Part shown: piece after piece, positions 20,723-35,510 of the stretch
Layout: each line of letters starts with the position of its first letter
Position numbering within the stretch: position 1 is the stretch's first letter
The notes under the pieces: generated by a model
The model's input: the letters and a program-made list of their open reading frames with translations, nothing else
The model's database searches: none
Told to the model about the DNA's origin: nothing
Assembly (NCBI GenBank): GCA_947561715.1
Contig: OX387203.1
Span: 8,060,001 to 8,124,000, forward strand
From: Ascidia mentula
Taxonomy: Eukaryota; Chordata; Ascidiacea; Phlebobranchia; Ascidiidae
DNA length: 64,000 nucleotides
Reading direction: 5' to 3'
Made by a program: the position numbers and the translations under genes

Positions 20723-22415
20723 TAATTTCTAAATTGTTAATGGTGTCCTGTGTTTATAATGTTTTAACCTAGTAGATATTAATGCAAGTTTTCAAGCCTT
20801 TGCGTTAATTCTGGTACGCAATATGCTGGCAATTTTCATATGCATTATCGTTACCATTTCTTACCTCCAACCAACTTCTTCGCAATTTTATGACTAAAAA
20901 TGACCTTAAAGCAGGTCTTTAACCTAAACCGCCGAAATATTGAACCTTCTGTGATGCCCGAACTCCTCACGCCGCACGTTTGCCTTTCGATCGATTGTAA
21001 ATTGGCATTTAATCGACCCCGTCCCGTCAAATCCAATTACATATCGGGTATCCACTTGACACCACTCTATGCGCATGATTGAAGGTCTTTGTATATTTTG
21101 ATCGACAGGTAAACATCAAATTGGGACGGCGTTTGACATTCTTTGTTTCCATATTCGTTTTCGTATAGTGTAGGCTGCAGAGCCAACCTGATTAAACCGA
21201 ATAATTTTCCGAAATGGTTTTGATTTGACAAATCCAGTCACCACAATTTCTGCTTTTTCAGGCAATTATAATGTATTTCAACGACCAATGAGACTTTGAG
21301 AACAAGGTATGGACGATCTCTCCATGTATGTTGGCCTAAGCTAACGTAGGCAACTGTAGGTCAAGGCATTATTTGTACACTCACCTCGACAAGCCAACAA
21401 CTAAATTAAACTGACACACCCTCTGGCAATAGTTACTTATCATTCAGATAAATCAATGCACGTGTCACCTCCAGATACACAGAAAACGGCGTGTTAATTT
21501 ACAATTCAAGTATTGGTTTGTTTTGCCTGATACGAGCCAAGAAATTTACTGCACATATATGGAAACACCATTAAAGATATCACAACATTTCTACCGAAAA
21601 AAATTTTACCAGGGCTAACAGACATGTGCAGTGTTTGAGTAAACACGGAACACCATTAGGTGTGTCTGGAAAACTTTAATGAACAAGTAAGCAACGCCCA
21701 TTTGTAGGCGTTGGACGATGTATAATGACGCAGTAACGACTAAGGCGTTGTGGTCTCACGTTTGTTGCTTGGAGAGACTGGTTTGTCGAATAAAACTATC
21801 TACAGCCTCGGGGCAAATGGCATATTTTCTACTGCGCAGTTCAGTCTACACTGTCCCCCTAACTAACGTATGACAGCCAGTAATCAAGTATAGCTGCAGT
21901 CGACGTGATATTTCATGAACAAAGGTCAATGCTATCAGATTTGAAATTAGAAAGCTTGTGGTATTTGTTGAATCTTACTCCTCAAAGCCTTTGGTGACTG
22001 AAAAAAGTCCCATAAAATATAAGCAGGTGTGCTAGAAAGTACGTTCTTAGTTTTGTCCAAAAATGCACACAACAGGAATATCAATGTCGACAATATTTTC
22101 TATCAGGAACTTCTGTTTTTATTTTTGTCAGTTGCAGTAATCAGTTGTCCTATCAGCGTTTGTACCCAAGAGATATGTAGCACAAAAGGCTGACTTCCAA
22201 GTCGTTATTTTGTGAAATAATATGATGTTGGAAAATAGAAACCGGATTTCTCAAACGTGACGAGCAATCAACTACCATGAAAAGGTGGTCGCTGATCAGG
22301 TATATACAATGGTGTTTTAACAATAAATGTGTTTATTTTACTTGCATAATGTGTCAATGCATACCTATATAGACTATACCGGTATTGAGAAAGTATTCCA
22401 CTTAATTTACCTCAG
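20723..22415. other. intergenic region between divergent genes
   Basis: Separates the minus-strand gene from the plus-strand tetraspanin-PDZ gene. No convincing reading frame or RNA gene. The frame from 22327 runs into the first tetraspanin exon, but an acceptor (TTAATTTACCTCAG) ends at 22415, so the true 5' exon with the start codon probably lies in this stretch and is not identified. It should end with two bases of a codon. Confidence 0.45.
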
Positions 22416-25400
22416 GTGCTGCGAGCCATGCATAAATACCAAAGCAGCTGGGAAAATTCTTCGTGCTCTGGTCTTGATATTCAACATACTGTTGTGGGTG
22501 AGTAGTCCTGGTGTGTTTACAGATGGGTTCTTGCAAAACTTTTGTCTTTTTCTATACAGTTTGCTGGATGTGCATTATTAAGCGTGGCAGTATGGCTTCT
22601 CTTTATCAATCACGCTAGCACCATGTACTACAACACCTTTCCACCAATGTCGACAGGTACAGTTTTCTTTCCCAGCTTGTATTAGGTTAGAGAAGTGTGT
22701 TGATTCACGCAGGCAACATGTAAGTTACATATATAGTGTAAATATTACTGAATATGATTTTGTTTTCAATACAAACCTGTTTTATACTCTTGTATAGAAT
22801 CCAAAAAAAATCTTTTGTAGGCGATAAACGTATCATGAGACTTCAATAATATTAAACTTTCATATATTTTATAGGAATAAGAAACAGCTTACATTGTTTA
22901 TTTTTCACGATACAGCATTGTACTTGCTACTATCCGCTGGGATCATTCTCCTTGTTATTTCGTTTATCGGTACTTGCGGAGCCAATACTAAGAGTGAGGT
23001 ATTGTTGTCCTTGGTAAGTCCAACAATTAGTAGGTTGCACGGTTTGTTTATGAAGTGATTACCATTGTTGGTTACAGTCCCTTCTGGCGCACTTCTTGAT
23101 TGCAGTGGCACAAGTCGTCGCCATTATAGTGCTCATGCATCAGCGTGGACTGGTATGTACACAACGGGTTGTGTTTATGCATGTCATGCATTTGTTATTA
23201 ATTTCATGCAAACATTTATTTTGTTTAAGATTCAGGACGAGGCACAAAAATGGTACACTGATGTCTTTATCGGCTACCCTGTGTCTGATAAGGACAAGAA
23301 GATGGTGGACCACTTCCAGATGGCCGTAAGTGTTAACCAACATACTGAAAAACCCAACCACAAAATACTTGCTCTGCCAACCTTATTTGTGCATATTCCA
23401 TGTATTAGATAAGGTTCGTACTGTAGTAATGATTTAATTTGTTTAGCTTCATTGCTGTGGCCTCAACAAACCCTACGATTTTCGTCAGCGTTTTTCAAAC
23501 ATAACACTGACACCAGCCTCGTGTTCGGGTGAAACTGTTTTTCAAGATATACGCGTCACCAAAAAGGTTTATTCGGATGTAAGAAGCAAATGGCCAATGT
23601 CTGAAAAGAAATAAGTCATCATGAAGTTTAACTCAACAACATGTTTATTACATTGCATAATATTGTAACCAAACCTGTATATAACCGTGTGATTAATATA
23701 CTTCACCGGGTTTGTTGGATAACTTTCGGTGTCGCATCAACCTCAACCATTGTTGCGTTTTGAAATTTACACAGGGTTGTTTGGTAAAAATAAAAGAACA
23801 AGTGCGCTGGTTTATTCAATCCTGGCCGATATGGTTTTGTGCAACAGTTCTGTTCATAATCGAAATAGGAGGATTCATTTCAGGACTTCTGTACGTCATA
23901 TACCAGTGTAAGTACTTCAACATTCACGCCAAACCTGATCGGTTCAACATAGGCTATGATACTTTAAATTCCACCTGCTTTTCAACAGCCAATTAGTAGA
24001 AAGTGCAAGCGTTGGCATTACAAATGTAATTTCATGCAAAAATTACAAAACTTTAACTTTATGATAAGTAATTTTATTGTGACACGGGGCCTGACGGCAC
24101 TATTGGTTGAGCTTTGCTTGGTCATAGTGTTTCCACCTTGTTTTCTCCGTAAGGTTGCACCTAGTTTGGTGCCCAATGGATGACGGTGATTGTATCTTTG
24201 CTTGGCCGTTTGGTCAGCAAAGTCGTCTTATAGTCACACCAGCTGCACTGATGAGACCCTTTAGGTCGAAACAGTGGCCATCTGTCTGCAGCTTATACAC
24301 AATTTAACTTATGGTTATGTTTTTTTAGTTCGCAGAGGAAAGTTTGACTATGATGATGACGAAGATGATGAAAGTTCAGGATTAATAGAGTAAGAACCCT
24401 TCTAGCTTTTTCATCAAATTTTTGCCAACACAAAAGTTCAAGAATATCGACAGTTGAACCTATTGCACATTAATTTAATCATGTTGCAAATAGTTGGACA
24501 TACTTTAATATACAAGAGTTCCTCACTTTTCAGCGACAAGGATGCAGGAACATTTAAGCGCATGGCGAGTCTGAGAAAGCAACTTCCCATGATGAGAGGT
24601 ACGCGCTGCGTAAAATTAATTGGAGTTTTTACTAATACTCTTTGCAATGTTACCCACCATTTTCAGAGCTTCCACTACCTAAACTGTATCGTATTGCGCG
24701 TAAAACAACCGAGGATGGATTTGGATTTTCTGTCGATTTCAGCGGAGAGCGTAAACAATACGTCATTAGTCACGTGCAACAAGGATCAACTGCTGATTTC
24801 GCCGGACTGAAGGAAGGCTCCCACGTGATTGAGGTTAGCATGATTGTTGCACTTTGTTTCCTGGAAGAGATTCTAAATCCGTTAAGTTTCTACTTTTTTA
24901 AGTTTCGATAAACTGGCATCGCAGCCTGCGCAGTGCATGGGCGATCCTGCCTGTTCATGTTAACACTTCTGTGTTTCTACTTACATACGTTTATAGTTGA
25001 ATGGAACTATGACAGACAACGCCACAGAGGATGACGTGAGATATAAGTTTGAGTTCGCTGGTTACGAGATGAGAATTCTGGTCGTCGATCAAGCAACGAG
25101 CAATTTGTATCATAACAACAAAGTGGATATAAACCTTCATAATATGGAAGGTAAACATCTTGCAAGAAATACAAAAAAAAGTCTCGCAGCCAAAATTTAA
25201 ACGTTCATAACCGCTTAAATCCCTATATATGTCACCAATGAAAAAATTAGTATAGAAACACAAAGTATAGAACAGAGATAATTGTATGAAAATACCTTTA
25301 ACTTGCATGTTTAGGTGTCACCGATGGGAGTTGTGATTATCGTCCAAGGCTTTGTAAAGTCCAAAAGTGCGATTCCGGCTTTGGATTCAACTTATTGTAC

Positions 25401-28400
25401 CTGGAAGATAGAAAAGGAGAATTCATTGAGGATCTCAAACCAAACGGGTCAGGAGCGAACGCCGGTACGTTGTCACTACTTGTTTTAACGCGTATAGATT
25501 ATCTTCTTTGGTGTATTTTTAAAAAGGTGGAGCCTTCTCGAACATTACTGAATTATATGCCTAATTAAAGTTTTGGCGATATTTTTTACGTTATCAATAC
25601 ATCTGGAAGCACATCATTGAACAATTTGTTCAATTTGGGACTGCAAATCACTAACTAATCAACTAAAATTTGAAATATTTTAGGTTTGAAAATCGGAGAT
25701 CGGATTGTGGAGGTTAACGGAGTGAATATCGAACGTGAAAACTCAAGGGACGTAGTGAGGAGGATACGCATGAGTGGCGACACAGTGCATCTACTTGTAG
25801 TAGACCCTAAAACTGATGGATATTTCAGGTATTGATTACGGACAGAACGTGAAATTGGACAGAAAAAATGAATCAATGTTTTTGGATGTAGCTTACATAA
25901 AACAAGTTACATTTCTAAGTAGAATAGATTGAAGATTTCCACGACGCCACAAACACAAAGTTAAATATAGTTGTCGTGTAATTCACAGGAAGAAGTCGGT
26001 GACGACCACAGCTTCAATGGCTGAGGATTACTTTGTTGACTACATTGGTACCCAGCCAGAAACTCCAAGACGTAAGAAATCATTATATCTTAATTCTCAT
26101 TTGCATCCAAAAACATTCCTACAACTTTTTACGATTGCAGCAAACCGCAAAGGCCCGCGAAAATCTAAACCGCGTCATTGCCGCTTGCTGAAAGGAAGCA
26201 AAGAAGAGTTTGGTTTGTACGTTGTTATCGACAACAATCGAATCGGACAAGTAGGTTATGTCATTGGTTCTCAATCACCTTTCCATTAATTCTCATAACT
26301 TAAGTATTATTGTGTAAGCGCAGACAGATGGCCACTGTTTCGACCTAAAAGGTCTAATCAGTGCAGATGGTGTGACTTTCAGACGACTTTGCTGACCAAA
26401 CGGCCAAGCAAAGACTTCCACTTTGTGGTGACTATACAATCACCGTCATCCGTTGGGCACCTGCTGCACTGATGAGACCTTTTAGGTCGAAACAGTGGCC
26501 ATCTGTCTGTAGCTTACACAATTCATATTATTGGTTCCACTTTGCTCATCTTAAGTATTATGTTAAGGTTTTAGCACATTAGTTTTAACTATAATCCAAA
26601 GTCTGTTTGTGCTTAATGTTTAAGGTCATTCGTTGGGTGGACTGTGGAGGCGCAGCAGACCGGGCTGGACTAAGGATTGGTGACAGAATAGTGGAAGTAA
26701 ACGGCAAGAATGTGGAGTACGAAGCACACCAACGTCTCATCGAGGCGATTTGCGAGAAGGAAAACACGGCCGATTTAATCGTGGTGGACGAGGATTACGA
26801 CAACAGATATAAAAGGTAGCGAACACTATTTGCATTTAACCTACATTTAAACTGTTTGAGCAAAATTGTATCAATTGCTTCACAGGAATAAGCCTACACT
26901 TTGCCGGATATTTAAGGAAAATAACGTATTCGGATTTTGTGTTGAATATAATTCCGCCAAAGACGGACACTATGTGGATGAAGTTCAACCGCAAGGACCA
27001 GCCGACAGAGCCGGGCTCCACGTAAGCATTAGAAAAACAAACAAAAAAACTTAGGTCTCTCAAAATCTGATGCTGTTTGATTTTTGAAAACAGATCACCG
27101 ATAGAGTAATTCAAATCAACGGGGCCAACATAGACCGTGAAACGTCAGAAATGGTGTTGCAACGCTTGAGGGCGTGCGAGAGCGAGGTTGTGCTGCTGGT
27201 TATCGACAAGAAATCGGCAAAACATTACAAGCAAATCGCGAAGTTTAAAAACACGGTAAGGAAATAGCGCACGCACAATAAATGATTAAATTAAATGCTG
27301 GTCAGTTGAAAAAGTTTGAATTGACAAAAATATTTTTAAAAAAGAACACACTGACGCTGATCGTAAGACCGATCCGTTGGTATCACCTAACAAGATCAGA
27401 CTGATTCCTGCTGTATAAAAGGCATTTTTTTGCTCCTAAAGCCTTCTAAATTGACAAAACAGTTACAAATGTAAAAGCAATTGAACCAACAATAATCAAC
27501 CATATACAGACAGTGCATACTTTTGACTCATCAGGTCTCGGGAAGAACTCACCAACTGCACTGACATGGCTCATAATATATGACTCAATTACTATACATA
27601 TACTTTAATAGGAAGTAAATGACATCGACCTCGACGCAGTTTCACTGCCCGAAGAACCCGTGTTTGTCCCGGCAGCTGAAAAAGAATCCGAAACTCCGGC
27701 TACTCCTGAATTAAACCTGAATGAAGCGATAACGATGGTTGGCACAACAGACTATGCCGCTATAACCGACACAATACTAAAAGGTATTCAAAATCTCTTT
27801 CGACATATAGGTGGTAATAATAGCAAAGCTAAATTTGAACAAGGAATGTATGTAATCCTAAGTCGTTTGATAGACGTTATTGATGATACATATATTTCGC
27901 CTGTATTTACAGACATCAGTATCGCTTGTTCAAATAAATAACAAAAACGACTAAAGATTACTTACAGGAGTTGTTGTAAAATATGTTACGGAGTCTTCGT
28001 TGGCCATAGAGGCAACAGGAAATTTAAAGTATACAAATTTTCATTTGAAGGAGAAACAAAATTGTTTACCCACAGGGTGTACTGATAAAAACCTTGCATA
28101 TATAGGACGAAGTACATCTTCAGACCGGGAAGGTGAATCGCGCAAGTGCGTATTGAGAAAGGGGTCGGAAGAGGAGCACGGCTTCTTCCTCGCAATAGAC
28201 AGAGATCGCAAGGGTCAAGTTATTCGAAGGTACGTCACAAACGCATGGCGTTGTCCAACATTTACATACAAGCAACGTTAACAAGCAACTCTGGCGTTGA
28301 ATACCCAGTTTTAATTGTGACAAAAACGTATACTACATGCACAGTTAGACGCACAGAGCAACGTATAGCAGAAAATAACCTATAGCAAGAAGTTCTTAAC

Positions 28401-31400
28401 AAAACCATGTGTGGAAGTCAAATTAATTATTATTTATGAAAGAAAATTTTTGATTTCAGAGTGGTTGAAAACGGTGCAGCTGATCGGTCAGGCCTTCGGA
28501 ACGGCGATAGAATATTAGCCATCAACGATGTGCAAGTTACAGCAAAGAAACATGATGAGGTAATTCCTGATTGTATAATTGCCATCCGAGTAAAATTTGG
28601 ACATGGTTTGCGAAGTCGGCAATCTCTCATTACAAATTCAATGACTTAAAATCGATGAGATTTACAAACTTTTCAAACTGACCACAAGAAAACAAATTAC
28701 TTTCCTGTTTGGATAATGTCAGATACAGTTAGGTCGAAAAACATAACATCAATAAACATACTTTTAGCATCTCCCTGCTTTCCTAACATCAGTAGTGCTG
28801 GCAGTAAATTAAGGATTGCAGCATCACCCACTAAATGATAAAAGGCAACTGCATAATTAGGTCGACTTAATCATTTGCTTCGCAGAAAATAAAGTGACTG
28901 ACTACGGTAGTAAAGCAACAAGCATTTTTCAGGTTGTTTCTTTGATACACGAAAGCGGGGATGTGGTTGAGTTTATGGTGATCGATGAAAGATCGGATGA
29001 CCTCGGAGCAAGAAGTCGCGATTGCCTGTTCCGCATCAAGAGAGGGAAAGGAGGATACGGGTTCTACCTGTGGTACGATGAGGACGGCCATTATGTCCAG
29101 GATATCACAACCCATAGCCCTGCTGACAAAGCCGGTATGTTCCCAAATTTGTGTTATGAGCTCCAGCAAGGAATCTCAGCTTATTTAGATTTAGAAGATA
29201 ATGATGAGGCCAGTTGCTATATCAACCAATTGTATCTTCTGTAAGTGAGGCTGTCCCCAACTGTTCTATAAGCCAGCACCACGAAAAATAGTTTTTTGTA
29301 CCCTGAAATGCTTTCAATAAAAAATACTATGGAAAACAGAGAATGCTGTGCAAGACAACTTTTTGCCGATGCCAATGAACAACAACCTGCATTAACCAGT
29401 ACAAGAATTTACCCTTTTCGTTTGCGTTGTTATAAAGGGTTGCGGCCAGGTGATCGGCTGGTTGAAATTAACGGCATCAACGTTGAAGAGGAAACACATG
29501 AAGATGTTTTCTATCGAATCAAAGCCTGTACTAACGTGGTGACTCTGATGGCCCTGGATGCCAAAACCTACGCCTACTGCAAGAAGAATTCTGTAGATCT
29601 AAGTTCAAAGAAATTAAATACCGCCACATTGGAAAATAAAGCAGGTACACTAAACCAAGATCACATTATGTTGACAACTTGTGATGGTCAAAAATTGGTC
29701 AAATTTGCATAGCTTAGCACTATGACAAGTTTCAAGTCAAAACGCCTCACATGCTATGTATTTCGCAGTAGTTTACTATAAACTTGCAAAAATCAATCAA
29801 AAGATTGGCAAAATTTTGTACTGAAAATTGCCACCGGTTTTCGTATTTCAGACGCCGTGCAAAAACCCAAACCGACAGAGAAAAAGACGGTTCGGCACGA
29901 GGTGATTCTACGTAAATCGCGAAGGGACGACGGCTATGGTTTCCACCTCGCTTACTCCAACTCGTTTATGGAGGAAAGCGGGAGGAATGTTGGTCACGTG
30001 GTACACTGGGTGGAGAAGGGAGGACCAGCTGACGTTGCTGGAGTTCGTGATGGCGATCGAATAATTAAGGTACAGAAATTGCGAGGATATTCCTTGTAGA
30101 AACAGACGTTACTAACCTAACAACAATTCCAGGTGGAAGTATGTTTCAAAAAGTACAAATTTTAAGAAAAATCAAGCAAAACTATATAATCGCATGTGCT
30201 TAATTGCGCGTATGAAGCCTTGGTTCATGATTATCACATCTCTTTTCCTTCCAACAGACGAATGACTAAATCCAATTAACTTATGTGGCTGCATTAAACT
30301 CACAACAACTTTTTAGGATGTTTCAAAAACAGACCCAAATTATTTAAAACATTTATCAATAGGTCAAGTTTTAAAGTAAAAATTGCTGTCATTTCAAAAG
30401 GTGAACGGCGTAAACGTTGAACGTGAGGATCACGAGCAAGTGATGGTTAGAATACATAGTAACGGCATGAACACGGTTATCCTGGTGGTGGAGTTTCAAG
30501 AAGGCAAGTTTGTGATCAGTATGTTACAATGCATGTGTTGTTAGTGAAAACCATTCTGTTGTACAGACGCCATGTTGCCTCACGATGTGGTTATCAAAAA
30601 AGAAAATGGATCGTTTGGATTTTACCTCTGGTTCGATGAAAACGGCCATTACATTGAAGATGTAACCATCGGATCCACTGCAGATGAAGCGGGGTTAAAA
30701 GTCGGCGACAGACTAATGAAGGTATGTTTTCCATTTGGGAAAGCTCATAAGTTACAATTACATGTAAGGTTTGGGCTGACAAAATTTCGGAACGGAACAA
30801 CGATCTTATAAACAAATCAGTAGGTGTTTTGTTCTTCAGTAGGTACATCCACAATTACGGGATATTTTAAGGCAGAATATATTTTAGAAATATTACGATG
30901 CATGATCGACAGCCTGTCAGTGTCCTTTTTGCGCTATTAGATCCAGCTTATTTTCCACTGTACTTCAATACACTTGTGTATGACAGACTGCAATAGTCGT
31001 AATTTTTTAGTAGCCTTCACTTCCACTATGCAAGTTCAAAAATGGGAAACAAATTGATGAACAACTGACACAGTAATTGGTGATTTCGTTCATAGGTGAA
31101 TGACGTGGAAATCGAAAGCGACAACCACGAGATGGCGGTAGGGCGCGTGCGTGACGCCGGTGATGAAGTAACTTTGAACGTTGTCAGCGTTAAGTCGACG
31201 GAAACGAGACAGGAACAAGCAGCCCCGAAAGTTTGCAATGTAAAAGTAACATTTTGACACGAATGAACGGATTACTATCTACAAGTATTTTACAACAGAT
31301 CATCAAAAAGTTCGGATCGTATGGTTTTTGCATACAAGAAGACAAACAAGGGTTGTATGTGGAGTTTGTACAACCAAAGAGCGCGGCTGAGGATGCTGGG

Positions 31401-33395
31401 CTACATGCTGGAGACAGGATACTGGAAATCAACAACGAAAGTGCTAAAGGTTGGAAAACTATTGCCTTAGCTGGTTAAACGATACTTTTGCTTAAGGTGG
31501 GTTATATTCTTTACACAGGAATCTGTCACACGGAAGCTATAGGAATAATAATGCGCTCAAGATCATCAGTGGCCCTAACAGTCCTTTCCGCCAAAAAAGA
31601 TCCACACAACTCAAAGCGGAGCAACTCAAGGTGAATGACTTCCTGCAGCAAGTACTAACGTATAACTTAGGATCGTAACTCATGATTTTATGAATCTTCA
31701 AAGCAAACATTAAAGCCCATGTAACTGCTAAGAAATTCACTTTTTCAGACGTTTCGATTGGAACTACAAGGCATTTCACATTCAGAATGATTGTAGTTCC
31801 ATCGAAACGTCTGGAAAACTAAATTTCTTAGCAGTTACATGGGCTTTACAGTTTGTTTTACTAACGTATAGTGCAAGGTTGCAATTTTCGTTTTATCCTT
31901 GTACTCAGCAGCACTGGCCTGAAGCTTCAACACAACTCGGCTGCTGCCATCTTCGATCAACTTCTCGGAAACACACAATTTGATTACGTTGTGGAAAAAC
32001 GGGAATACGGAAAAGATGAAGGATTACAAAGATCTCAGCAGTCGGGAACAGATATGAGAAACGACGACAAAAATGATGCGCACGAGTGAGCTCAAACCCT
32101 AGTTGGATTTTTACCATATTCATGATGGAATTAGTGTGGAAATAAATTTACATACCCAGTTTGGTGCAGTAATTACACATTGACGCTGCAACACGTAACC
32201 ACAGTAACCTTTATTTTAGACTTCCTGTTATCAACATTCGCCACAGCTTGCGAAAACGCAACAACAAGAGAAGGAGCCTACGCAAAAAACTGAAGCCGTC
32301 GTTTAGAAGGTAACAGCCTTAGTTGTCTACTACGCCCGTTGGCTTTTGACTTTGAACACCTTCTGAACAGAACCAAAGCTGTTTCGGCTAAGACAAGGTT
32401 CTCCAAGGGAGAAGATAATGTTGCTTTTGCGGAAGAAAAACCTGAAGTGACCTTTTCAGAGGAAATCGTAAAAGAGGTGGGAGACAAAGCTTTAAAGTAA
32501 AGTCTTCCAAGGCACGGCTAACGTTTTTGTGCACAGGGCCATTACCTGGAGGAAACACTTAAGCGTGTAGAAAAAAGTGCAACCACTAGACGACGCACTA
32601 TTTCCAAAAGACCGAAAGTTCCAACGCTGGAAAAAGACCACAGCAATAAGGTAAAGCATTTGCACAAACATGTAAGGGCGACACAAAGACAAAAACTGAA
32701 GTTTGAAACTTGGACAACCTTGTGTTGCAAACACAATCGTAAAGAAAACCACGATCCTGCCAGGACTCGAACCTGGAATCTCCTGATCCGTAGTCAGGCG
32801 CCTTATCCATTGGGCCACAGGACCACTTGCTGAAGAGCTCTTAATGCTTCTTTATCTGTTTTGTGACCGAAGTTTCGTGAGGAAGCAATAATAACTCTTG
32901 GCTTCCTGTCCGCGACGCAACAGCCGCTGTGTTAATTCCTTATTATATTTTCTGATCGCAACGATGAAGATAATGCATGATATCTAGATGTAGCCATTGT
33001 TGGCCAGAAGAATCAGTTTTTGTGTAAAATATGCTTCATTATTGTAATAATCTCGAGTCATGCGTTCTATTCTATACAAGCTTATTTAAAAAACATAGGA
33101 AAATTAAACACCTTAATCTTCCGCTTAGACAAAAAACACGACCAGAAGAAAGTTTCACCTGGCAACATCCGGGACATTAAGATGGAAATTCGAGGAAACC
33201 GATTCGCGAAAACCTGGTCACGTGTTCACCAGAACGGTTCAGGACGACTTTGATGACCTTTTCACGCCTGCTGAGGGCAGCAACCAGACTACCCTTAATG
33301 CAGTGGTGCACGAAACTGAAGACGGTTTTGGTAGCGCTGTCGCGAACTTGGAAACAATGGAACTTGACAATAGTTCCAGACAAAGCGAAGTGTGA
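22416..33395 (+). CDS. Tetraspanin fused to nine PDZ domains
   Basis: A membrane scaffold, as I read it: a complete tetraspanin followed by an NHERF/PDZK1-like PDZ array facing the cytoplasm. The 29 shared coding exons run 22416-31630. Every junction keeps the frame, with lengths and phases matching throughout, including the two linker exons (24329-24389, 24534-24598) that join the membrane part to PDZ1. The shared part is about 1268 residues. Two alternative ends follow: a short last exon (31909-32089, about 1327 aa in all) or four more exons ending at 33395 (about 1459 aa in all). The true start exon upstream of 22416 is not found. Known tetraspanins bind PDZ proteins through short C-terminal tails; I know of none carrying its own PDZ domains. 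One intron (after 30503) is GC-AG. The alternative reading, two genes wrongly joined, is disfavoured by phase continuity and by the absence of a stop or poly(A) signal between the parts. Confidence 0.88.
24080..24300 (+). repeat. Hammerhead-bearing repeat, copy 1 (intron)
   Basis: Lies in the intron 23908-24328 of the tetraspanin-PDZ gene. Its middle (GATGACGGTGATTGTAT, CTTGGCCGTTTGGTCAGCAA) matches the reverse complement of the copy at 26311-26520. The right end carries a complete hammerhead. The left boundary is not sharp. Confidence 0.6.
24241..24293 (+). ncRNA. Type I hammerhead ribozyme, copy 1
   Basis: Every core element is present in order. Stem I 5' strand AGCTGCA (24241-24247); CTGATGA (24248-24254); stem II GACC/GGTC with loop CTTTA; GAAA (24268-24271); stem III ACAG/CTGT with loop TGGCCAT; GTC cleavage triplet (24284-24286); stem I 3' strand TGCAGCT (24287-24293), fully complementary to the 5' strand. 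Predicted self-cleavage falls between 24286 and 24287. The stem III loop holds the palindrome TGGCCA, which could help dimer formation. It sits in sense orientation in an intron of the tetraspanin-PDZ gene. Confidence 0.85.
26316..26366 (-). ncRNA. Hammerhead-like unit on the minus strand, core altered
   Basis: Reading the minus strand from 26366, the order is stem I strand, CTGATTA instead of CTGATGA, a perfect stem II (GACCT/AGGTC), GAAA, the ACAG/CTGT stem III, and a GTC. The core change should abolish or greatly reduce cleavage. It is the inverse partner of the intact unit at 26463-26513. Confidence 0.6.
26463..26513 (+). ncRNA. Type I hammerhead ribozyme, copy 2
   Basis: Stem I 5' GCTGCA (26463-26468), CTGATGA (26469-26475), stem II GACCT/AGGTC with a TTT loop, GAAA (26489-26492), stem III ACAG/CTGT with loop TGGCCAT, GTC triplet (26505-26507), stem I 3' TGTAGC (26508-26513). 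Stem I keeps six pairs with one G-U where copy 1 has G-C, so pairing is maintained between copies. Predicted cleavage lies between 26507 and 26508. Sense orientation within the host intron. Confidence 0.85.
31712..31847 (+). repeat. Long near-perfect hairpin (fold-back element)
   Basis: Left arm 31712-31769 and right arm 31791-31847 are inverted copies with about four differences over 57-58 bases, separated by a 21-base loop. It lies in the intron just before the alternative short last exon (acceptor at 31908). It could be a fold-back MITE. No clear target-site duplication is visible. Confidence 0.8.
31909..32089 (+). CDS. Alternative short last exon of the tetraspanin-PDZ gene
   Basis: Follows the TACTCAGCAG acceptor, a NAGNAG tandem site: either AG keeps the frame and adds or drops one residue. 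It enters in phase 2, matching the donor at 31630, and reads [20 protein letters not shown] through to a polar tail ending NDAHE and TGA at 32087-32089. AATAAA lies 51 bases further on (32141-32146), so this isoform can use its own poly(A) site. Its C-terminus is not a PDZ ligand. Confidence 0.75.
32141..32146 (+). terminator. Poly(A) signal of the short isoform
   Basis: AATAAA, 51 bases downstream of the short-form stop and before the next coding exon at 32220. Confidence 0.6.
32220..33395 (+). CDS. Alternative long C-terminus (four exons) of the tetraspanin-PDZ gene
   Basis: Exons 32220-32309, 32371-32476, 32537-32650 and 33129-33395 continue the frame directly from the donor at 31630 (phase 2 out, 2 in), skipping the short last exon. 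They encode a very basic stretch ([15 protein letters not shown]), then acidic and Thr/Ser-rich sequence without a known domain, ending SSRQSEV and TGA at 33393-33395. The final S-E-V is a class I PDZ ligand (S/T-x-hydrophobic). The last intron holds a tRNA gene in antisense. A poly(A) signal follows at 33812. Confidence 0.78.
32752..32824 (-). tRNA. tRNA-Arg (anticodon ACG)
   Basis: 73 bases on the minus strand. Acceptor stem GGTCCTG/CAGGATC (one G-U), A box TGGCCCAATGG, anticodon loop CTACGGA giving ACG, B box GGTTCGAGTCC and discriminator G. A TTTT Pol III terminator follows a few bases after the 3' end on the minus strand. No intron. It sits antisense inside the last intron of the long tetraspanin-PDZ isoform. 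Confidence 0.95.
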
Positions 33396-35510
33396 CGTCA
33401 TTTCTTCACAACGGTTTATGCATCGCGACGTTTCAGAAATATTTCATGTTCAATAGGGGTAAAAACAACTTGTTTATAACAAAAGTTGGGGGCAATCGCA
33501 GTAATTACATAACAGCTCTTACCGTTTTTTTAAACCTCGGTACGACCAAAGACAAAAAAGCTTACGAGCGTATTGGGAGTAAACAAGTGGAGTTACGTGA
33601 TGCGAAATACCACAGCATTTTCCACGAGAAATTGCGTTGAGATTCACATGTTTTCAGAAAGATTGTTACAACACACCTACGCGAGACAACACGTTTGACA
33701 GGAGTAGATGTTGTGTTACATATTTGTGGCACAGCAAACATGCTTCTCGCTTGTTGCCTCGTGTAAGCAATTTGCACAACAACACAATGACGTACTCGCT
33801 CGTACAACGCCAATAAATGCTTCACTGCGTATTGAAACCATTGAATGAAGAAGTGAGTTGACGCAACCGCAGTTGCGCGCTATTTTTGGGCGCCGGCAGA
33901 ACAATCAAGGAAACACTTGGTCATGAATGCACGTGCGCGCGAAGCAATCTATCGCATTAGGGACGCGAGCGCAGGGTCGAAGTTTGGTGCAGAGAATGGA
34001 ATGAATCAGAAAGCACCTTTGCACGCAAGTGTCAGTTGCCGTTTTGGTCTCAATACGAATTTTATGTGGAAGATATATAAGGGGAATGTCAGTGGAAAAT
34101 GGTTCACTGTAAGACCTCAGCAAACTATGCAGGGTTAACTAGGAGTAGGCATGTAAGAGACCGCCGAGCGCTGTAGCTTCGCATACAGCCACAATACATT
34201 TGTAGTCAGCGAAAAGAATGTTGCTGACCTAGTTAAGGGAATTGTTTACAAACTCGAAAGACGTAATGTTCACAAATGTAAGTGCACACATACACAGGCA
34301 AACATAGGCAGAATTGTAAAAAGTTACTACGGTATTGTCAGATGGAAATGTTAAATCTTTTACTGCTCGTCTACGGTATGTTTTCAGCCTTTACCCCTAC
34401 GGCAATGCGTCACCAAGTCCGCAAACCGTTCCTGAAGTAAACATATGCTTCAAAGGTTGACTGGAATTAACAACCATTTAAGTTAAACGTCGCAAGGAAG
34501 GACAGAGCCAACTATGGCTGACTCACAACATGATATAAGATGGACACAGCATGCGAATTTCACTGGTAAAGTTGAAATGAGTGAAATCATAGAGCAAAGA
34601 CCGGTCACGGTTTCATTTCGGACTGTTGCAGTCATGCGTTATGAGGTTATGGTTTTTCTTACGCTCTCTGGCATCAGTGATCAGTCCTATATATTACTAG
34701 ACTGTATGGAGTTTTAGGCGTGACAGAAAAAAGGCAAAGAATGCCGAAAGAACTTTTAGGTACAAGATCCTGTGCTCGCTAAGTGTTTTGAAGTCGCAAT
34801 GCATTGTTTTTGATTTGTGCTGTTTATCGTGTGTAGTTTCCACACATATGACGTACAAAGCCTTCCCACGCATCCCATACGCAATCCTCTGGTTGACGCA
34901 TCTTTTGGAGTAAGCGTTCGAGGAAACCAAAATTCAGCAACCGGTGTAGCTTAAAATGTAGTGGAAAGCAACTGTAGTGGTGGAGAGTCTGCTTTATGAT
35001 TAGACGCCAGACCTCCAGCTTCCTGGCTCGGGACCAAGTTGGTTGGGTTTTTTTAACATTTCTAGTTGCGACTAACATAGTTGAACTGCAACTTCCGCAA
35101 AGTTGTAGGAAGCTTCGAGTGTGCGAACTGACCAATTGATTACATAGGCCTATGCAGAGTAACAAGTAGAGCAGAGCTGAGTTGTTGATATAACCTGTGT
35201 TTCTTTTTCTAAAACCAGGGCAACTACAATGCTCAGCAGCTTACAACAGGCACTATTATGTCGAGTAAATCCGTTTCTGTCTAGCGCGTAAAGCGGTTTA
35301 CATTCTCCTGTTTCAACAGTCACGAGACAGCGATTCCAGCATGGTTTAAAGCACCCTGTACATGCGGAACGGGCACTTGAACCGATATGCAAATGTTCTA
35401 TTTGTTGACAACTGCTATTTTTCGCAGATGCAAAGTTGTATGTGTCCAATAATCGTTATGTACATGTGGCAGTATTGACGTAATGCACAAAGACCGATGA
35501 AAACTTTATC
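33396..35510. other. 3' UTR and intergenic DNA before the GPCR
   Basis: The start is probably the long isoform's 3' UTR (AATAAA at 33812). The remainder has only short frames overlapping on both strands. A CRE-like TGACGTCA (35512-35519) overlaps the GPCR start codon. Confidence 0.5.
33812..33817 (+). terminator. Candidate poly(A) signal of the long isoform
   Basis: AATAAA about 415 bases after the stop at 33395. It is the first good match on the plus strand that I noticed. Confidence 0.45.

Follow-up and report, generated by a model that had tools for sequence, protein, structure and literature searches.

The window, a stretch of DNA of 64,000 nucleotides, carries on its forward strand a gene of 35 exons (22277-33395), for which a script-built model with 34 introns gave a single open frame of 1,533 amino acids; its CDS is 4,602 nt long and contains no internal stops. 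Of the introns, 33 are of the GT-AG type; the exception, which follows exon 26, is GC-AG. The initial annotation had placed the start at 22416 and counted 28 shared junctions of matching phase. Position 22416 proved to belong to exon 2, and the initiator ATG (MKRWSLI...) fits an upstream exon at 22277-22299, which has an open frame and a GT donor and leads into exon 2 in phase 2; the open spliced frame was upheld, and the count of junctions had to be replaced by the 34 introns of the model. The frame closes at a TGA (33393-33395), and the first AATAAA past it, found in a hexamer scan of 33396-34000, lies at 33812-33817 and is a probable poly(A) signal. The locus was confirmed as real and well-formed, both as DNA and as a gene model.

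Several further features were noted within the gene. The end of exon 28 (31096-31260) has two rival in-frame donors, AAT/GTAAAA and AAA/GTAACA, and its 3' end is ambiguous by 6 nt with the frame unaffected; if exon 28 were left unspliced, the frame would close after ...VTF and give an eight-PDZ form. A tRNA-Arg (ACG) gene lies antisense, on the minus strand, in the last intron (32751-32825), and intron 30 holds a MITE-like hairpin (31700-31859) with 59-nt arms that are 90% complementary and a 42-nt loop. Introns 8 (24071-24324) and 16 (26320-26520) carry copies of one dispersed element, which, compared with each other, form 95-nt inverted arms of 95% complementarity; relatives at ~80-97% identity occur on many contigs among the candidates that were scored (40 of 1,788).

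Exons 2-8 (22416-23907) encode the four transmembrane segments TM1-TM4 and the large loop of a tetraspanin, as judged from Pfam and hydrophobic segments. Pfam PF00335 (Tetraspanin) matched once, at residues 24-239 (E=1.8e-27), with 96.9 bits against a curated cut-off of 32.1, which places this part in the family. Seven overlapping hydrophobic segments in the hydropathy profile spanned four places, at about residues 18-57, 62-92, 93-125 and 212-244, and the CCG of the loop occupies residues 158-160, with more loop cysteines at 181 and 201; cysteines 9, 10, 13 and 88, candidate sites for the palmitoylation that goes with partner webs in this family, are also present in this part. The best PDB sequence matches were CD9, CD53 and TSPAN7 (E 2e-17, 5e-15 and 5e-13, respectively), with which it shares the four transmembrane places, the CCG and a large loop with four cysteines. 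The complete four-transmembrane tetraspanin with a CCG loop, as first annotated, was therefore supported by the Pfam match, the hydropathy places and the CCG. The same holds for the acidic tail proposed to follow it, since the translation of exon 9 (24329-24389), the cytosolic tail, is basic and then acidic; a motif scan found ExxxLI there, which we class as an acidic-dileucine-like motif. Known tetraspanins end in short cytosolic tails. In contrast to CD9, CD53 and TSPAN7, the frame here runs ~1,270 residues further if intron 9 is spliced. Given that the C-terminal tail of a tetraspanin is cytosolic, the compartment where PDZ domains work, the topology of a tetraspanin-PDZ fusion is consistent.

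Exons 11-30 (24667-31630) encode nine PDZ domains of the NHERF/PDZK1 type and their linkers, and exons 31-35 (31909-33395) a basic tail ending in ...RQSEV. Pfam PF00595 (PDZ) matched nine stretches (E=3.5e-112). Among the best 60 of 171 PDB matches, the best relative of PDZ2 was NHERF1 and that of PDZ3 and PDZ4 was NHERF3/PDZK1, and none of the best stretches fell on PDZ1; among the 47 matches listed for the later domains, PDZ5, PDZ6 and PDZ7 had NHERF1, 2 or 3 as their best relatives, and PDZ8-9 were covered solely by DLG4, Scribble and site-2-protease chains. Because of this pattern of PDB matches, the likeness to NHERF in sequence is less clear for PDZ1, PDZ8 and PDZ9. The nine NHERF/PDZK1-like domains of the initial annotation were recovered all the same, as nine Pfam stretches whose PDB relatives are mainly NHERF1/2/3. 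Pairwise identity among the nine was 16-45%. In their alignment all nine share the second loop glycine, and a helix histidine, which we take to be a mark of class I ligand binding, is found in six of nine (PDZ3 and PDZ5-9), the others having E (PDZ1) or S (PDZ2 and PDZ4). Under the class I rule, as we assume it, the C-terminal -QSEV apparently fits a class I PDZ ligand. Known NHERFs are cytosolic, have no membrane domain of their own and contain two or four PDZ domains; the array here would be cytosolic in this sense if intron 9 is left unspliced and membrane-anchored if it is spliced. The present array resembles NHERF1/2 and PDZK1 (NHERF3), its closest PDB relatives, in being a multi-PDZ array and differs from them in its nine domains; it also differs from NHERF1/2 in giving no EBP50 C-terminal match, as the ERM-binding/EBP50 C-terminal domain was absent from the six Pfam families matched at E<=0.001. 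The ERM-binding domain belongs to NHERF1/2 only, and PDZK1 likewise does without it.

The whole claim of a fusion hangs on intron 9 (24390-24533; donor AGA/GTAAGA, acceptor CACTTTTCAG/CGA), because without its splice the frame stops at once: translation that continues through the donor of exon 9 meets GAG-TAA, with the TAA at 24391-24393. The statement that neither stop nor poly(A) signal separates the two parts thus holds for the spliced message and fails for the unspliced one, which meets this TAA and the variant hexamer AATATA at 24507. An unspliced tetraspanin would end in ...DDESSGLIE, a plausible 21-residue tail. This raises the alternative of a tunicate operon of two genes, in which the tetraspanin ends in ...ESSGLIE with a poly(A) site no further downstream than 24533, and a spliced leader is joined at 24534, so that a separate, soluble scaffold is translated from the ATG at 24562 (or 24589/24592). 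We regard both halves of this alternative, the main rival of the fusion, as possible, at below even odds.

In leave-one-out scoring, the intron 9 donor reached 4.59 bits, which ranks 28th of 34 and is weak yet within the gene's range, and the acceptor reached 6.29 (14th of 34). The low rank of the donor speaks for the operon, as weak first donors accompany trans-splicing in Ciona, according to an excerpt of PMC11155486. However, the operon would need an in-frame donor to lie over the stop by chance, and simulation of 20,000 terminal exons yielded a donor equally good or better, in the right phase, in 9.8% of them. The pentamer GTAAG occurs nowhere in the 4,602-nt spliced CDS. The in-frame stop over the donor was rejected as proof of two genes, since the gene has eight phase-2 donors, of which five run directly into a stop when read through.

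Exon 10 (24534-24598) is a linker that contains the ATG at 24562; this codon, Met274, is in frame with the PDZ domains and lies 12 residues ahead of exon 11. In the fusion frame no stop interrupts the 27 nt before this ATG, and their codon log-odds, calculated with codon usage learned from the remainder of the gene, was 5.45 bits. This value, for one short segment picked after the fact, was equalled or exceeded by 13 of 4,749 intronic 27-mers, by 14 of 3,048 coding 27-mers read out of frame and by 194 of 1,524 read in frame, the last set including training codons. Against the operon, such open, coding-like sequence before a start would have to be due to chance (0.3% and 0.5% on the two backgrounds). 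The start itself is awkward for an operon, as the base at -3 of the ATG at 24562 is C, and another ATG, out of frame and with A at -3, comes first at 24542; on the other side, the 24562 ATG has G at +4 and the later in-frame ATG at 24592 has A at -3, which would allow translation to start in exon 10. Each of the two cut ends resembles a natural terminus, judging from ...SSGLIE and the short stretch before PDZ1, which fits two genes. The coding-like linker codons also bear on another explanation, that the join arises only from occasional read-through of two normal genes, as a chimera without selected function. Tightly spaced same-strand genes commonly yield some read-through, and the weak donor (rank 28 of 34) would suit it; however, linker codons of this kind in the fusion frame suggest that the linker was once under selection as protein, and we consider such a chimera improbable.

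In introns 8-10, a hexamer scan found neither AATAAA nor ATTAAA. The AATATA at 24507, which belongs to intron 9, lies 27 nt upstream of the acceptor of exon 10, as a poly(A) signal of an upstream operon gene might, and a variant hexamer occupies the equivalent position in 7 of 34 introns, intron 9 included. The missing canonical hexamer was rejected as proof of fusion and counts little, because 23 of the 34 introns lack AATAAA/ATTAAA, as does the gap of the control pair described below.

The operon alternative gains from the genome in which the locus lies. A 16-base leader, ATTCTATTTGAATAAG, followed by GTA, forms tandem arrays in this genome, with at least 46 exact places on C1:15.24-15.29 Mb, mostly at ~720-base spacing; with up to 2 mismatches, it was found at 2,522 places genome-wide versus 6 for the reversed control. 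Among the matches listed, the spliced-leader RNA arrays lie at C1:15239663-15292119 (mostly ~720-base) and C71:13038730-13054837 (281/430-base). A GTAAG donor and U-rich sequence follow in the two leader copies examined, whose first 80 nt did not contain the Sm motif AGCTTTGG of Ciona. An excerpt of PMC7986045 gives ATTCTATTTGAATAAG as the exact leader of Ciona intestinalis and AGCTTTGG as the Ciona Sm motif. Because arrays of a leader identical to that of Ciona are present, we infer that the source genome is that of a trans-splicing tunicate. About 20% of Ciona genes are in operons, typically without intergenic DNA, as stated in part of PMC2760879, and portions of the same paper and of PMC7986045 describe such operons as often mispredicted as fused genes by annotation pipelines. 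The leader and the abutting of operon genes both favour two genes here, and the fusion stays unproven because separate genes are often packed this tightly in tunicates and the leader is present.

For comparison, we used one pair of genes as an operon control. At C1:25817661-25820948 (locus L025), URM1, identified by Pfam, is followed by a same-strand gene with a Surp module, which we take to be CHERP. An operon DTL-URM1-CHERP is given for Ciona in an excerpt of PMC2760879, and by analogy the URM1/CHERP-like pair presumably forms an operon in this genome as well. The tetraspanin-PDZ locus resembles the Ciona operons in having same-strand sequences packed together in a spliced-leader genome. In the control, 262 nt separate the URM1 stop from the next ATG, and the gap contains no AATAAA/ATTAAA but only TATAAA and CATAAA, a point on the side of an operon. 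The spacing from stop to acceptor was 140 nt at the tetraspanin-PDZ locus versus 208 nt in the control (best-scoring acceptor), which is likewise compatible with an operon. On the other hand, the control pair differs in that its upstream stop is not overlapped by a donor and the frame ahead of the downstream ATG is closed: the single GT in the terminal exon of URM1 scores 2.09 bits, and the 9 nt ahead of that ATG include an in-frame stop.

We also looked for related loci in the genome. The closest scaffold relative outside the locus is a second NHERF/PDZK1-like multi-PDZ gene (L038, C67:17386800-17396700, from about position 1640), in which an ATG (MTVDDGLREC...) lies fewer than 10 residues before the first PDZ. 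No tetraspanin match was found in the 9.9 kb of L038, ~1.6 kb of which is upstream of the first PDZ, and none of the genome tetraspanin matches listed was near it. The L038 scaffold looks soluble, if its first ATG is the start, a point in favour of a soluble scaffold at the present locus too. The best tetraspanin relative in an exon-by-exon search outside the locus was an open frame of 269 aa on C70, 27% identical. A duplicate of the fusion elsewhere was therefore rejected, with the C70 tetraspanin only 27% identical and the C67 scaffold without a tetraspanin match in the 9.9 kb covered. A retrocopy or second-haplotype copy of the spliced join was rejected as well, since exons 8-12 matched this locus alone, as its five exons (1/1 candidate); a genomic query of 23775-24850 was swamped by the dispersed repeat of intron 8 (40 of 1,788 candidates scored). 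The retrocopy search gives no help for or against the fusion. The unique match of the spliced exons 8-12 does argue against an assembly artefact joining two unrelated loci, as does the position of the junction inside a 19.9-Mb contig, and, with nothing seen that would speak for it, we consider such an artefact extremely unlikely.

Taken together, the fusion is favoured because the donor is within the gene's range, the linker codons are coding-like, the exon-10 ATG is awkward and the control pair differs. Most likely, with a probability of about 0.6, this is one gene whose main or alternative transcript would encode a membrane-anchored multi-PDZ scaffold. The initial claim of a single polypeptide holds for the domains and the open spliced frame; it had left out the operon, and the fusion is leaned to rather than settled. 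The domain architecture, should the fusion be real, is probably new: judging by titles and the starts of abstracts in the open-licence literature (on ascidians, fusions and shuffled domains), none of the papers found describes a tetraspanin-PDZ protein, a weak negative, and the earlier statement that none was known stands uncontradicted within that scope.

The weak donor of intron 9, given the link drawn in the excerpt of PMC11155486, leaves room for a switch between cis- and trans-splicing. Three products might then depend on one GTAAG. Its use as a donor would give the fused, membrane-anchored nine-PDZ protein, a part of the switch that we put forward tentatively; with the GTAAG unspliced, its TAA would end a free tetraspanin and a leader joined at 24534 would free a soluble scaffold, which is equally speculative. 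If the two genes instead form an operon, co-transcription may match the amounts of tetraspanin and cortical scaffold.

Returning to the fused protein, both its function and the cis-splicing of intron 9 in vivo are predicted from the gene model. A tetraspanin similar to CD9, CD53 and TSPAN7 would put the N-terminus in the membrane, and its cytosolic tail would run through an acidic, dileucine-bearing linker into the nine NHERF/PDZK1-like PDZ domains and then into the basic tail with -QSEV. The PDZ array would face the cortex, and up to nine C-terminal ligands could be held in tetraspanin membrane. In the manner of NHERF/PDZK1, several clients with C-terminal ligands (transporters, channels and receptors) would be kept at the cortex, with the scaffold fixed stoichiometrically in tetraspanin-enriched membrane, rather than brought there through contacts with ERM proteins or ligands. 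The C-terminal -QSEV might bind a class I PDZ of its own or of a neighbouring molecule and so chain or close the scaffold, and the acidic and dileucine residues of the linker could contribute to endocytic sorting.

Tetraspanins and PDZ scaffolds are both membrane organisers that meet via short contacts. CD63-syntenin-1 and TSPAN7-PICK1, as far as described in outline, are likewise PDZ scaffolds attached to tetraspanins, by a non-covalent contact of two proteins, whereas the contact here would be covalent. If true, the fusion would be a natural test of a permanent tetraspanin-PDZ contact and would offer a tool, already made by nature, for gathering transporters in tetraspanin domains. If the locus is an operon instead, it would be a warning that tunicate annotation readily invents chimeras. 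The switch, if true, would mean that cis- versus trans-splicing at one acceptor sets the share of scaffold locked in tetraspanin membrane, and would catch an operon becoming a fused gene. In the context of a spliced-leader genome, the locus may show how adjoining operon genes merge into one.
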